A stretch of 44,790 nt of DNA from Sphingobacteriales bacterium (GTDB taxonomy: Bacteria; Bacteroidota; Bacteroidia; Chitinophagales; JADIYW01). Numbering within the stretch: position 1 is the stretch's first letter; the number at the start of each line of letters is the position of its first letter. The translations under genes and the position numbers were made by a program. Below the pieces are notes generated by a model, which saw nothing but the letters and a program-made list of their open reading frames with translations, had not been told where the DNA came from and did no database searches. Of this stretch, positions 3,165 through 23,707 are shown piece by piece. Location: the NCBI GenBank assembly GCA_947460245.1, contig CANHGL010000015.1, positions 1 through 44,790 of the forward strand, written 5' to 3'.

Positions 3165-5018
3165 ATGAAAAAAATCTTCCTCCTAATTTTTACTTGTTAT
3201 TTGGGCATTTCTAATGCCTATACTTTTGAGACTATAGATGATGCTATGCGCTCTATGGTAGATACCTCGCTAACCCCTTTTTACCATGGCGTAGCATCCG
3301 GTGATCCAACGCCCAATGCTGTGATGATTTGGACGCGCATAACACCTGACGTTGCCGGTGCTGTAAACGGAACCTGGCATATCGCATTGGATACAAATTT
3401 TACGCAGGTAATACAATCCGGTACTTTCAGCACAGACAGCACCGTTGATTATACCGTTAAAATTGATGTTGGCGGACTGCAACCCAACACGTGGTATTTC
3501 TATGAGTTTACAGCATTTGGAAGAAACTCCTTAACCGGAAGAACAAGAACGGCGCCGGTGAGCGGAGTAGCTCAATTGCGTTTTGCATTTGTATCGTGCT
3601 CTAATTACCCGGGTGGTTATTTTAATTCCTATGATCGAATTAAAGAGCGAAACGATATTGATGCTATATTACATCTTGGTGATTATATCTATGAATATGC
3701 CTCAAACCAATTTGGATCAACACGAGGCGATCAGCTTCCCTCTTATGAGATCTTAAATTTAGCAGATTACAGACAACGATACTCTACTTACAGATTAGAT
3801 AAGTCGACCCAAAAAATGCACCAGCAGTACCCATTTATATCTATTTGGGATGACCATGAAACTGCTAATAATGCCTATCATGATGGTGCAGAAAACCATA
3901 CACCCGGAACAGAAGGTCCATGGGATTTCCGTAAAGCAGCAGGACAGCAAGCCTACAATGAATGGCTGCCGCTACGTTTACCGGAAGCAGGAAACCCCAA
4001 TAAAATATGGCGGAAAATCAGCTATGGAAATATGGCAGATATTTTTATGTTGGACACCCGACTATATGCCAGAACACTACAAGGCGGTACCGTTACGGAT
4101 ACGTCAAAACATTTAATCGGTGAAGCACAGCTACAATGGCTGAAGACAGAACTAATGAATTCCACAGCAAAATGGAAGATTATTGCTCAACAGGTTATGG
4201 TTGGAAATTTGACACCGTTTAACCTCGTTATCAATAACGACCAATGGGACGGTTATCAGGCAGATCGTAAGAAATTGTATGATGTGATACTCAATAACAA
4301 TATCAAAAATATCATCGTTCTTACTGGCGATATACATACTGCCTGGGCTATGGATTTACCATATAATACTGCTACCTATAATGCTGCAACAGGTGCGGGT
4401 TCTGTTGGGGTGGAATTTGTTTGCACCAGTGTTACCTCACAATCTTCTCCGGTAGCTTTGGATGGCATATATCCCTTAATTAGTGCATTATTACCGCATA
4501 TCAAATATGTGGATTTATATAAGAAAGGCTATGGTATTTTAGACCTTAAAGATAGTATAGCGCAAGGTAATTTCTATTCCGTTAATACGGTTACAACAAG
4601 AGATACTGTACAACGATATGAGACAGGCTGGTATACCTTAGCTGGAACCCGCTGGCTAAAAAAAGCGACAGCTCCTTCTGTGAAAATTGATCCTCCATTC
4701 TATCAGGCACCGGAAAATCCAAGACAAACCGTATCTACCGGCATAAAAAATAATTCTAACAGCTTAGTGGTATTAAGTGCTTACCCGAATCCATTTATCG
4801 ATAAAATTTCTGTTCAATTTAGTATTGCAACAGCTACTACTATAGATTTAAAAGTGTATGATATGACAGGCAGATTGGTACAGCAAACTGATTTCGGACA
4901 ATTATCTAAAGGATTGTATACAAAAATTGTAACTTTAGATAACTTATCCCGCGGTGCTTATAAACTAGTTTTAAGTAACGGCAGAGATATAAAAGAACAA
5001 ACCATAGAAAGATTCTAA
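3165..5018 (+). CDS. phoD: PhoD-like alkaline phosphatase with T9SS type A sorting domain
   Basis: This is a secreted phosphodiesterase/phosphatase of the PhoD superfamily, releasing phosphate from organic esters outside the cell. Residues 1-18 form a signal peptide ending SNA. An Ig-like PhoD N-terminal domain follows (HGVASGDPTPNAVMIWTR, about 41-58), then the metallophosphatase domain with LHLGDYIYEY near 170, WDDHE near 228-232 and TGDIHTAW near 387, which carry the metal ligands. The last roughly 80 residues, starting at AYPNPF, form a T9SS type A sorting domain (GRLVQQ, GAYKLVL, a short basic end), so the protein is expected to be exported by the type IX system and attached to the surface or released. 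It is 617 residues long because of this extra domain. The next gene starts one base after its stop, suggesting co-transcription. Confidence 0.92.
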   Translation: MKKIFLLIFTCYLGISNAYTFETIDDAMRSMVDTSLTPFYHGVASGDPTPNAVMIWTRITPDVAGAVNGTWHIALDTNFTQVIQSGTFSTDSTVDYTVKIDVGGLQPNTWYFYEFTAFGRNSLTGRTRTAPVSGVAQLRFAFVSCSNYPGGYFNSYDRIKERNDIDAILHLGDYIYEYASNQFGSTRGDQLPSYEILNLADYRQRYSTYRLDKSTQKMHQQYPFISIWDDHETANNAYHDGAENHTPGTEGPWDFRKAAGQQAYNEWLPLRLPEAGNPNKIWRKISYGNMADIFMLDTRLYARTLQGGTVTDTSKHLIGEAQLQWLKTELMNSTAKWKIIAQQVMVGNLTPFNLVINNDQWDGYQADRKKLYDVILNNNIKNIIVLTGDIHTAWAMDLPYNTATYNAATGAGSVGVEFVCTSVTSQSSPVALDGIYPLISALLPHIKYVDLYKKGYGILDLKDSIAQGNFYSVNTVTTRDTVQRYETGWYTLAGTRWLKKATAPSVKIDPPFYQAPENPRQTVSTGIKNNSNSLVVLSAYPNPFIDKISVQFSIATATTIDLKVYDMTGRLVQQTDFGQLSKGLYTKIVTLDNLSRGAYKLVLSNGRDIKEQTIERF

Positions 5019-19573: not shown

Positions 19574-21586
19574 ATGATGATACACATACAAAAAATTGCT
19601 TTACTACTTTGTTTTATATTGGCTTTCTTTAAGCCTACAATACTTAGCGCCAATAACCCCGATTTTGAAGCCAGACGGAATGCACTTGTTGACAGTGGAT
19701 TGGTCTACTTTAATGACAATGCTATATCCCTTCAAGCATACAGAGGATTACCGGTTAACCAGGCTACCCTTACTTCTTATCTGGATGGACTAAGATCTGG
19801 CCAAAATGCAGATTTTCAGGTTGTACAACTAGTTCGTGTATTGGAGTTATCAAATGGAGAATATGACAGTCAGATTTTACCTGTATTTGACTCTTTACCA
19901 TTTTGGCTAACAAATGGTGAAACGAAACGCGAATATTGGTCTGAAAACCATATGATTCTTTGGATGTCATCGGATTGGCTCATGTATGAAAAATATGGAA
20001 AAACAATAGACAGTAGTTTAGAATTACGCCTCAGACATTATTTAAAGCTTAAGCTTCAGTATGGCTTTTATGAATTCTTTTCCTCTGTATATGCACCATA
20101 CGCTTTGGCTGGATTACTTAACCTGTCTGACTTTGCAAGAGATCCTGAAATAAAAAGTGATGCTACCAAAGCTGCACAGAATCTTTTGAAAGAAATAATT
20201 TTATTAACTAATGACAAAGGGGTCTTCTATCCTACTGCAGGAAGAAATTATCACGGGAAATATGACAACCCTTATGGTCAAAGTCACAATAACTTAATTT
20301 ACTTACTTACCGGCCTTGGTCCTTTACCCTTAGGTGTTTCTACTGCAGGCGGAATATTTGGTAGCTCTAATCTACCGGTAGATGAAATAATTAGTTCTTA
20401 CAGAACTACAGTGGATACGACATTTATCAATGGACATTATTTAACAGATGGTTTCAGTATCAATCAAAATATGTCTAAGAATGATAAGACTATCTTCCAA
20501 TGGAGTTCAGGTGGATATTTCCATCCGGATGTAGCAGTAGCTACGGCTACACTTATTCAAGATCTGAATCTTTGGAATCACCCGGAATTCAGAGAATTCA
20601 GATCTTTTTCTTCTTTAGATATTTCCGGAGCAAGAGATCTGGCTTTATTGGCAAGTTCTATTTCTCAAAGCTCTGTACTTAGCAGAGAAGAAATCTCTAT
20701 TTTCAAAAATAAATCTATTACACTCTCTTCCGTTCACGATTTTTGGAAAGGAAAATTAGGATATCAGCAGTTCCCATGTGTTGCGAATATCGGCACAACA
20801 GCAATCTTTACAGGTTCAGGGAAACCAGAACCAAACTGGGACGACAGACCAGCACTTCACGCCAATGAGCACCTTCCTTGCGTAACTCAGAAAAGCAATG
20901 TAGCCTTAATTATGTATAGACCAGAAAGGGGCCTGTCCTTATTCAATCATAAAGATTTAGATGTTGCCCTACACTGGAAAACTGAAGACTATGATGAAGA
21001 AAGAGAAAGTGGATCCTGGCTATTAGGAAGACAAGGCAATAGCTATGTCGCAGTTAGAAGAAAATGTAGCGGAACCATAAATAATGTGAAAGCCTGCAGC
21101 GATCCTGATGCTCAAACCTGGGTAATCGTAATTGGTAATGATGACATGTATAATAACTTCGATAATTTCCAACAGATTATTGAACAATCCGAATTTACGG
21201 AGAAATGGTATTATAATGGCGGTACTTCCGAATGGGTATACTATGCGCAGATAAAAGTAGATGGAAAAACAGTGGAGTACACTTGGAATGGCGATGCTGA
21301 ATCAGGACCTACATCTCCGGATGCAAATATCCAAAGTAGCACAATAAATGTATATCCAAGTCCAGCATCAGATCAAATTAGTATAGACTTATCCTCTATT
21401 CAAAACCAATCGGTTAAAATTGAGATTACCAATATGCTGGGACAAAAAATATATAGCGATCAATCAAGTGCTGTATCAACCAGAATAAAACAAATTAACA
21501 CCTCTGGTTTTTCTACCGGATTATATCTTGTAAATGTTTCCAGCGGAGATACCCGTTACACGAGAAAAATAATGATAAAGCGGTAA
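19574..21586 (+). CDS. Secreted alpha/alpha-toroid-like protein with T9SS sorting domain; candidate polysaccharide lyase
   Basis: No named family is assigned with confidence. The 670-residue protein has a signal peptide (about 1-26, ending LSA) and a helix-rich N-terminal half with pieces such as YWSENHMILWMSSDW (121-135) and NYHGKY with YGQSHNN (225-240) that look like an alpha/alpha toroid carrying conserved polar Asn, His and Tyr residues. A beta-rich part follows (about 380-580). From about 595 (INVYPSPASDQIS) a T9SS type A sorting domain ends in RYTRKIMIKR. It heads a three-gene cluster with a GH88/GH105-like and a GH43 enzyme, spacing 17 and 10 bases. GH88/105 enzymes need products of polysaccharide lyases, and no other lyase is nearby, so I infer a lyase role. 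Starts at 19574 and 19577 are both possible. Confidence 0.65.
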   Translation: MMIHIQKIALLLCFILAFFKPTILSANNPDFEARRNALVDSGLVYFNDNAISLQAYRGLPVNQATLTSYLDGLRSGQNADFQVVQLVRVLELSNGEYDSQILPVFDSLPFWLTNGETKREYWSENHMILWMSSDWLMYEKYGKTIDSSLELRLRHYLKLKLQYGFYEFFSSVYAPYALAGLLNLSDFARDPEIKSDATKAAQNLLKEIILLTNDKGVFYPTAGRNYHGKYDNPYGQSHNNLIYLLTGLGPLPLGVSTAGGIFGSSNLPVDEIISSYRTTVDTTFINGHYLTDGFSINQNMSKNDKTIFQWSSGGYFHPDVAVATATLIQDLNLWNHPEFREFRSFSSLDISGARDLALLASSISQSSVLSREEISIFKNKSITLSSVHDFWKGKLGYQQFPCVANIGTTAIFTGSGKPEPNWDDRPALHANEHLPCVTQKSNVALIMYRPERGLSLFNHKDLDVALHWKTEDYDEERESGSWLLGRQGNSYVAVRRKCSGTINNVKACSDPDAQTWVIVIGNDDMYNNFDNFQQIIEQSEFTEKWYYNGGTSEWVYYAQIKVDGKTVEYTWNGDAESGPTSPDANIQSSTINVYPSPASDQISIDLSSIQNQSVKIEITNMLGQKIYSDQSSAVSTRIKQINTSGFSTGLYLVNVSSGDTRYTRKIMIKR

Positions 21587-21603
21587 AAGGAGAAAGGAAC
21601 ACC

Positions 21604-22752
21604 ATGACCAAAAAACCGCTAATCCTTCTTGTTTTTTTATTCACTATGAATAGTGGTTATCTTCTTGCCCAAACCTGGACAGACACTTTAGACCTATATG
21701 CAAGAACACAGTTTATGCCGCCTTCCAAGTTTCAGTGGAAATGGCAGAAGGCAGCATTATTGAGCACTATGGTAAAACAATACGATAAAGCTGAAGAGAA
21801 AAAAAAAGAGATCTACCTCAAATACATTCAAAAATGCATGCAAAAAACCATGCAACAAGCAAATGGTAAAACACCGAATGCTGTTGCATCAGGACTTGGA
21901 ATGGCATTTCTATATCGGGTTACACGTGAAGGAAAATATAAAGAGGTTTGTGACAAGATCTACAAAGATTATCTACTTATTAAAAGAAGTAAAGACGGTG
22001 GAGTCTCGCACCTCGTAAAGAATATAGAACTATGGGATGACACGATCTTTATGATTGGTGAATTTCTTATCGAAATGTATCGTGCTACAGGAGATACAAA
22101 TTATATTGATGAATTGGTGAAGCAAGTTTCTATACATCGCAACAAACTACAGGATCCGGAATGGGGATTATGGGTGCACGGTTGGGATAACGATAATAAG
22201 TCACACTGTACCTTTTGCGGGCAAATGTATTGGCCAGATAAAAGCACAAGAAAAAGCAGTGAAATTTGGGGACGAGGAAATGGATGGATTGTTGTTACAC
22301 TATCAGACGCTATAGAGTGCCTGCCTCAAGAAAACAAACAAAGAAGTATACTTACAGGATATCTAAAAGAAATGCTTTACCGACTTCCGGAGTTGCAGGA
22401 TAAGAATACAGGACACTGGTATCAACTTCCGGTTAAGAACAATCATCCCAAAAACTACATAGAAAGTTCATGCACTGCCATGTTTGCGTATGGAATTTCA
22501 AGAGGTTTGCAAATGGGTATTATTCAAGATAGTAGTTATAATAAAAGTGTTGAACTTGCCTATATAGGGTTAAGAAACTTCAGTGTTCAAAAAATAAATA
22601 ATGACTATATCACTACCAAAAATGTTTGTAAAGGAACATGTATTGGCGATGAAACGTATTACCTAAACAGAAAAGTATGCCATGGAAAACCCTTTGGTAT
22701 CGGTATGTTCATCGCCTTTGGCAGAGCGTATGAGCGCATAGCCAAACCCTAA
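21604..22752 (+). CDS. GH88/GH105-type unsaturated uronyl hydrolase
   Basis: Enzymes of this clan remove the unsaturated uronic acid left at the non-reducing end by polysaccharide lyases, acting by hydration of the double bond. The 382-residue protein has a signal peptide (about 1-22, ending LLA), a six-hairpin alpha/alpha barrel, LWDDTIFM at 143-150 with the catalytic aspartate region, and WGRGNGW at 222-228, a strong signature of the YteR-like group. Repeated short segments such as TGHWYQLP and YIESSCTAMFAYGI support the fold. It lies 17 bases after the toroid protein gene, with an AAAGGAGA stretch in the gap that could act as ribosome binding site, and 10 bases before the GH43 gene. Rhamnogalacturonan or a related uronic glycan is the likely substrate. 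Confidence 0.85.
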   Translation: MTKKPLILLVFLFTMNSGYLLAQTWTDTLDLYARTQFMPPSKFQWKWQKAALLSTMVKQYDKAEEKKKEIYLKYIQKCMQKTMQQANGKTPNAVASGLGMAFLYRVTREGKYKEVCDKIYKDYLLIKRSKDGGVSHLVKNIELWDDTIFMIGEFLIEMYRATGDTNYIDELVKQVSIHRNKLQDPEWGLWVHGWDNDNKSHCTFCGQMYWPDKSTRKSSEIWGRGNGWIVVTLSDAIECLPQENKQRSILTGYLKEMLYRLPELQDKNTGHWYQLPVKNNHPKNYIESSCTAMFAYGISRGLQMGIIQDSSYNKSVELAYIGLRNFSVQKINNDYITTKNVCKGTCIGDETYYLNRKVCHGKPFGIGMFIAFGRAYERIAKP

Positions 22753-22762
22753 ATCTATCCGA

Positions 22763-23707
22763 ATGTATCGCATCAGATGCTTGCAACTCACAATTTTATT
22801 TTTTATCTCCCCTATTTGCCTTGCTCAGCATCCCATCATCACAACGCAATATACTGCCGATCCTTCTGCAAGAGTTTTTAAGGACACAATGTACCTATAT
22901 CCATCACATGATAAGGAAGATGCAAAGTGGTTTAACATGTCTGACTGGCATGTATTTTCCAGTGTAGATATGAAAAACTGGACCGACTATGGCATTGCAT
23001 TATCACTAGATAGTCTGCAGTGGGCAAAAAAACTGGCATGGGCTCCAGATTGTGCCTATCGAAATAATAAATACTATTTCTATTATCCGGTAGAAAAAAA
23101 TTATATTGGCGTAGCTGTTGGAGATCGTCCTTCAGGGCCATTTACAGACCCGTTACAAAAACCACTTATTAAAAGGACAACACCAGGCGTAATTGCAAAG
23201 AGAGGCCTTATTGATCCGACATTATTCATGGATGACGATAGTATACCTTATCTTATTTTTGGACAGAATACTGTCAATATAGTAAAGCTAAATAGCGACA
23301 TGATTTCATTTAAGGACAGTGTAAAAAGTATAAAAGGTGCAAAAAAATTCTTTGAAGGAGCATGGATGCACAAATACAACGGTAAGTATTATCTATCTTA
23401 TTCCGGCAAAAGTAAACTAGCAGCAAGAGGAAAAATACATTATGCCATATCAGATAACCCTTATGGCCCTTTTACACACAAAGGAGTAATAATAGGAAAG
23501 GTAAATAGTGGAACCAATCATGCCTCGATAGTTGAATTTAAGAGTAAATGGTATATCTTTTACCATACCGCAGATTTATTCTTAAAAAAACATCCAGAGG
23601 TTAGTAAATACAGTACCAAGAAATACTTCCGAAGATCTGTATGTTTTCAGGAGTTAAACTATAACAATGATGGCACTATTCAAAAAGTCCACCTGCACAA
23701 AAAATAG
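22763..23707 (+). CDS. Glycoside hydrolase family 43 protein
   Basis: A secreted five-bladed propeller enzyme, probably an arabinofuranosidase or xylosidase trimming side chains. The 314-residue protein has a signal peptide (about 1-21, ending CLA). The three GH43 acidic residues are visible: Asp33 in YTADPSARVF (general base), Asp151 in LIDPTLFMDDD (pKa modulator) and Glu198 in FFEGAWMHKYNGKYYLSYS (general acid). The propeller repeats DWHVFSSVDMKNW and APDCAYRNNKYYFYY also fit. It ends 15 bases before the convergent ABC ATPase gene. It completes the three-gene carbohydrate cluster, which lacks SusC and SusD homologues, so uptake must rely on genes elsewhere. Confidence 0.88.
   Translation: MYRIRCLQLTILFFISPICLAQHPIITTQYTADPSARVFKDTMYLYPSHDKEDAKWFNMSDWHVFSSVDMKNWTDYGIALSLDSLQWAKKLAWAPDCAYRNNKYYFYYPVEKNYIGVAVGDRPSGPFTDPLQKPLIKRTTPGVIAKRGLIDPTLFMDDDSIPYLIFGQNTVNIVKLNSDMISFKDSVKSIKGAKKFFEGAWMHKYNGKYYLSYSGKSKLAARGKIHYAISDNPYGPFTHKGVIIGKVNSGTNHASIVEFKSKWYIFYHTADLFLKKHPEVSKYSTKKYFRRSVCFQELNYNNDGTIQKVHLHKK

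Follow-up and report, generated by a model that had tools for sequence, protein, structure and literature searches.

The window analyzed here (a stretch of DNA of 44,790 nucleotides) carries a three-gene glycan cluster whose first gene probably encodes a secreted, toroid-type polysaccharide lyase, a reading which rests on its conserved lyase-type residues together with its presence in nearly all of the related genomes that bear a GH105 gene. We are somewhat less sure that this lyase belongs to an undescribed sequence family, where "undescribed" refers to the libraries searched (Pfam, NCBIfam, PHROGs, and the PDB). The fuller interpretation, toward which we lean slightly, is that gene 1 founds a new PL family, that this family forms the T9SS-exported arm of a larger superfamily marked by invariant E-N-H, E..Y, and R and containing other untyped branches, and that gene 1 starts a Sus-less three-enzyme pathway whose parts are chromosomally scattered in most hosts. 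An earlier note on this DNA had named gene 1 as the prime lyase suspect, and the phylogenetic profile, the E-N-H, E..Y, and R positions kept unchanged in distant homologues, and the lack of the other lyases tested all support that suspicion.

A three-gene cluster without Sus genes

All three genes lie on the + strand. Gene 1 (19574..21586; 670 amino acids) is followed after 17 bases by gene 2 (21604..22752; 382 amino acids), which is followed after 10 bases by gene 3 (22763..23707; 314 amino acids); these open reading frames and spacings reproduce the cluster as it had been described. The cluster lies between an RNase R gene that is divergent to it and an ABC transporter gene that is convergent with it, and housekeeping genes make up most of the other long open reading frames scanned in the window. 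In keeping with the earlier statement that no known lyase is nearby, neither a known lyase nor SusC/SusD was found among the long open reading frames scanned near the cluster. The adjacent SusC/SusD pair of a Sus-type polysaccharide utilization locus is thus not found among the open reading frames scanned in the window, and the whole host genome holds no SusD-like_3 match. The absence of SusC/SusD had been noted before and called unusual; the absence stands, but it proved to be what the loci read generally show for this module. In Bacteroidota, the degradation of glycans is usually traced through Sus-linked loci, and Sus-based searches would miss the present module because it has no Sus genes nearby, is exported by T9SS, and is scattered in many genomes.

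The gene 1 product was identified as T9SS cargo, as previously proposed, from an N-terminal signal peptide at approximately residues 1–25 (...FFKPTILS; 19574..19648, +; boundary by eye) and a C-terminal type A sorting domain at residues 593–668 (21350..21577, +; Pfam Por_Secre_tail PF18962, 3.9e-16; TIGR04183, 9.9e-13). Elsewhere in the window, positions 3165–5018 encode a PhoD-like phosphatase that also bears a T9SS tail.

Gene 2 matches Pfam Glyco_hydro_88 (PF07470, 7.9e-72), and its best PDB match is YteR (1nc5, 2.4e-40). Alignment to YteR places H136, W144, D146, M150, H192, W222, and W228 of gene 2 on His132, Trp141, Asp143, Met147, His189, Trp211, and Trp217, all of which are listed among the conserved catalytic-site residues (PMC4528949); D146, the counterpart of the catalytic Asp143, is encoded at 22039..22041 (+). 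Seven of the nine listed residues are therefore the same letter, and at the other two, Tyr41 and Asp88 of YteR, gene 2 has Trp and Asn, which are also the residues of YesR and RhiN at these positions (PMC4528949). This match to the unsaturated rhamnogalacturonyl hydrolases YteR, YesR, and RhiN identifies gene 2 as a GH105 enzyme of the unsaturated uronyl hydrolase type, although it differs from them in having a signal peptide (read by eye) and a partner that is not a known RG lyase. GH105 is described as containing 4,5-unsaturated glucuronyl or galacturonyl hydrolases only, and one member has been shown to act on the product of a lyase from the same locus (PMC8406133). Gene 3 is a GH43 enzyme of arabinofuranosidase/xylosidase-like type with a signal peptide (Pfam Glyco_hydro_43 PF04616, 8.4e-44; PDB 5a8c, 1.5e-67), and its catalytic acids (the Asp of TADPSA, the Asp of LIDPTLF, and the Glu of FFEGAW) align with those of the PDB enzymes. 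The GH88/GH105 and GH43 assignments of the earlier note were accordingly borne out for both enzymes, with gene 2 being GH105 and YteR-like rather than GH88-like.

We also considered whether a known RG-I or heparinase-type lyase might serve the GH105 enzyme. This was dropped, as RGI_lyase occurred in none of the 24 genomes with all or part of the module, and Hepar_II_III_C was absent from 22 of them. A profile search of the host genome for four families found no Hepar_II_III_N, Lyase_8_N, Hepar_II_III_C, or RGI_lyase.

Co-occurrence of gene 1 with GH105 and GH43

A close homologue of gene 1 was present in 23 of the 99 genomes nearest to the host (host counted), and a GH105 orthologue (at least 47% identity) in 18. 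Seventeen genomes carried both genes, six gene 1 alone, one GH105 alone, and 75 neither; the single GH105-bearing genome that lacks gene 1 is only 72% complete. The overlap gives a Fisher P of 3e-13, a value not corrected for descent, and when GH105 labels were shuffled within families the observed overlap was reached in 19 of 20,000 shuffles. Pairwise identities of the two proteins correlate with r of 0.85, but co-evolution and common descent could both produce such a coefficient, and we do not count it as evidence. Gene 1 and GH105 sit side by side in seven loci, and this recurrence led us to discard the idea of a chance neighborhood. In nine genomes the GH105 gene lies away from gene 1, mostly amid unrelated genes, and since the genes are unlinked in many genomes their co-occurrence is not due to linkage. 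GH43 orthologues (62–70% identity) were found in nine of the 99 genomes, all nine of which carry gene 1 and GH105, and the GH43 gene is unlinked from the other two everywhere except in the window. The nested distribution, in which gene 1 is the most widespread of the three and GH43 the least, recovered the gene set independently of linkage, and it could be the trace of an ordered pathway.

The profile bears directly on two alternatives to a lyase. If gene 1 were a glycan-binding surface protein, or an enzyme of another type, co-inherited with GH105 through one lifestyle, its presence without GH105 in several genomes, and the lack of a neighboring GH105 beside its homologues in Gammaproteobacteria and Desulfobacteraceae MAGs, would be readily accommodated; we regard this as improbable, both because GH105 occurs without gene 1 in one incomplete genome only and because the polar residues that remain invariant in remote homologues (see below) point to an active site. 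The second and main rival, a toroid glycoside hydrolase that would use the pair E124/E167 in the same pathway and itself produce no unsaturated ends, sits poorly with a profile that, by its association with GH105, implies an unsaturated product.

The first phylum-wide search for gene 1, whose query alignment still contained the T9SS tail, was discarded because its matches were nearly all to tails. In a sample of 395 genomes across the phylum, full-length matches were confined to the host and to one remote copy in genome G066 (approximately 25% identity), with three further genomes matching around the ENH motif. These few matches indicate that members of the close family occur mainly within this order. 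No relatives of gene 1 were found among viral contigs or plasmids. One genome without GH105 (G068) holds a homologue split across two overlapping frames (L037:7016-9023), which is perhaps a decaying copy.

Conserved residues and fold of the gene 1 protein

Relatives of gene 1 at 41–53% identity comprise one Bacteroidetes, one Desulfobacteraceae, and one Gammaproteobacteria MAG sequence, the latter two of which are without the T9SS tail. Across 24 homologues, including those of the Desulfobacteraceae and Gammaproteobacteria MAGs, two motifs are near-invariant and hence not due to chance: WSENH at residues 122–126 (19937..19951, +) and G-x-x-E-F..Y, which in gene 1 reads G164-F-Y-E167-F168-F-S-S-V-Y173 (20063..20092, +). 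The WSENH, NYHGKY, and YGQSHNN blocks reported previously at 122–126 and 225–240 were all located (the latter two at 225–230 and 234–240), with NYHGKY and YGQSHNN being loosely conserved, and in the close family only. A comparison of 13 sequences, spanning the close family to remote homologues at approximately 15% identity, left F81, E124, N125, H126, L136, G164, E167, F168, Y173, R224 (20243..20245, +), and P435 invariant. H126 is the only His kept in all 13; within the beta half the most conserved is H433, at 75%. N125 and Y173 are separated by 48–61 residues over the 13 sequences, and the catalytic residues of toroid lyases are Asn, Tyr, and His with an Asn/His-to-Tyr spacing of approximately 53–63 (PMC12088678, Table 4). 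Neighboring Asn-His pairs are known in PL39 (N186/H187; PMC12088678) and PL5 (N167/H168; PMC8511899).

These alignments also supply an argument for the glycoside hydrolase alternative, as E124 and E167 are no less invariant than N125, H126, and Y173. The neighboring Asn-His with a Tyr is, on the other hand, a lyase signature, and although toroid hydrolases (GH146, GH76, and GH105) do appear in the fold lists described below, they rank lower than the toroid lyases. Taken together with the profile, we consider a hydrolase unlikely and retain the lyase as the preferred reading. Counting against the lyase are the lack of an invariant His in the beta half, the six gene 1 genomes without GH105, and the weakness of the fold matches.

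The remote homologues (approximately 15–21% identity) include lipoprotein-like proteins and others, and no Pfam or NCBIfam family was found for them. One lipoprotein-like family, characterized by the motifs TENHIL and GFxEF (L034:6906-8549, L035:6613-8277, L036:6045-7691, and L042:40-1689), is homologous to gene 1 (hhalign, 96.8%), and in genome G062 such a gene lies approximately 7 kb away from gene 1. Three others (L091:1093-2907, L092:544-2184, and L093:1054-2937) share GDTENH and EFDSPxY motifs; by eye, the gene upstream of the first two encodes a BNR-like beta-propeller protein and that upstream of the third a trehalase-like toroid protein.

Searches of Pfam, NCBIfam, and PHROGs returned no family above cut-off for gene 1 beyond its T9SS tail, and PDB chains matched through the tail only, whether the single protein or a 25-member profile was used. 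In these libraries, gene 1 consequently falls in no known family of non-lyases, an outcome on which the earlier note had made its proposal depend. Neither gene 1 nor its homologues matched the Hepar_II_III (PF16889/PF07940) or Lyase_8 (PF08124/PF02278) models. Profile-profile comparison by hhalign gave a score of 30 against Hepar_II_III (probability 3.9%, not significant), with 12 unrelated control families scoring 14–21, and a probability of 0.07% against the PL8 (Lyase_8) set, also not significant. With the searches covering Pfam, NCBIfam, PHROGs, and the PDB, gene 1 might be a lyase of an already described CAZy family which has no Pfam or NCBIfam model and no PDB structure. This is a variant of the lyase reading, compatible with the same mechanism; we think it rather unlikely, in that no PDB chain matches the gene 1 profile beyond the tail and no family like gene 1 was found in the literature, both of which are weak tests.

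Structure prediction was limited by a shallow alignment, the AF2 models having been built from four sequences, and the pLDDT of the full-length protein was poor (58.7) with a trimmed version little better (61.7). At this low confidence, the models show a helical half to approximately residue 360 followed by an all-beta half; in the catalytic region, the all-beta C-terminal part covers approximately residues 383–572 (20720..21289, +), of which only the last part is confident. Models of this quality do not reliably bring N125, H126, and Y173 into a common pocket. Among 350,542 chains, the top six Foldseek matches of the trimmed model were PL12 4fnv, PL15 3a0o (two chains), PL12 4mmi, PL15 3afl, and PL8 1hn0, with weak, near-background scores (E of 9.5e-4 to 1.9e-2, TM of approximately 0.2). 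VIA-align rows were mostly PL12, PL15, PL17, PL21, PL35, PL39, and PL8, with Z up to 9.0 and rmsd of 17.9, near the background quoted for the tool. What speaks for the putative toroid fold despite these scores is that a single enzyme superfamily holds all of the top places. As to the toroid look attributed to gene 1 at the outset, the fold comparison leans to toroid lyases, while the model is poor and the matches are weak.

Gene 1 can be compared with three groups of lyases. The heparinase II/III superfamily families PL12, PL15, PL17, PL21, PL35, and PL39 resemble it in having helices in the N-terminal half and only beta structure in the half after it (in gene 1, from a low-confidence model) and in a similarly spaced set of invariant Asn, His, and Tyr residues, and they supply its top fold matches; they differ in that gene 1 has no Hepar_II_III sequence match and in using a His of the beta domain as second acid/base, of which the gene 1 family has no invariant equivalent. 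PL5 has an adjacent Asn-His plus Tyr on a toroid (N167, H168, and Y222 in Smlt1473), as proposed for gene 1, but is listed with a barrel and without a beta-sheet domain (PMC12088678, Table 3). A PL8 lyase is the sixth-ranked Foldseek match, yet the His of PL8 lies near the Tyr and not beside the Asn. Neither PL5 nor PL8 matches gene 1 in sequence.

Proposed pathway and its significance

We propose that the gene 1 protein leaves the cell by the type IX secretion system and would cleave a uronic-acid-containing glycan extracellularly by beta-elimination. N125 and H126, perhaps with R224, would neutralize the uronate carboxylate, R224 being the proposed contact to this group of the substrate, and Y173 may act as both acid and base. 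A single Tyr serving as donor and acceptor is a scheme known for some lyases (PMC8511899), and we infer that it fits gene 1 better than a His/Tyr pair because the beta half has no invariant His. The GH105 enzyme would then take off the new 4,5-unsaturated end, probably in the periplasm, after which the GH43 enzyme may remove the following residue, which is probably alpha-L-arabinofuranose or beta-xylose. Since a GH105 enzyme is paired with a GH43 enzyme resembling alpha-L-arabinofuranosidases and beta-xylosidases, the gene content suggests a glycan that bears uronate and contains arabinose or xylose; our guess is one such as occurs in arabinogalactans or pectin side chains.

One of the closest systems is PUL5, an arabinogalactan locus of Bacteroides plebeius with a GH145 lyase, GH105, and GH43_24 (PMC8406133), which likewise combines a lyase, a GH105, and a GH43 on one uronate-bearing glycan. 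The lyase of PUL5 is a beta-propeller within a polysaccharide utilization locus, whereas that of the present cluster is a putative toroid enzyme exported by T9SS with no Sus genes. If gene 1 is indeed a lyase, it founds an enzyme family not recognized by the sequence libraries searched. Such a new family of toroid lyases would add to the enzymes known to act on acidic polysaccharides and, seemingly lacking the beta-domain His, would test the relationships among toroid lyases. Lastly, in genus g24 (L101, L103, L105, and L109) the unlinked GH105 gene lies directly 3' of a gene for a secreted lactonase-like beta-propeller, a possible further member of the pathway.
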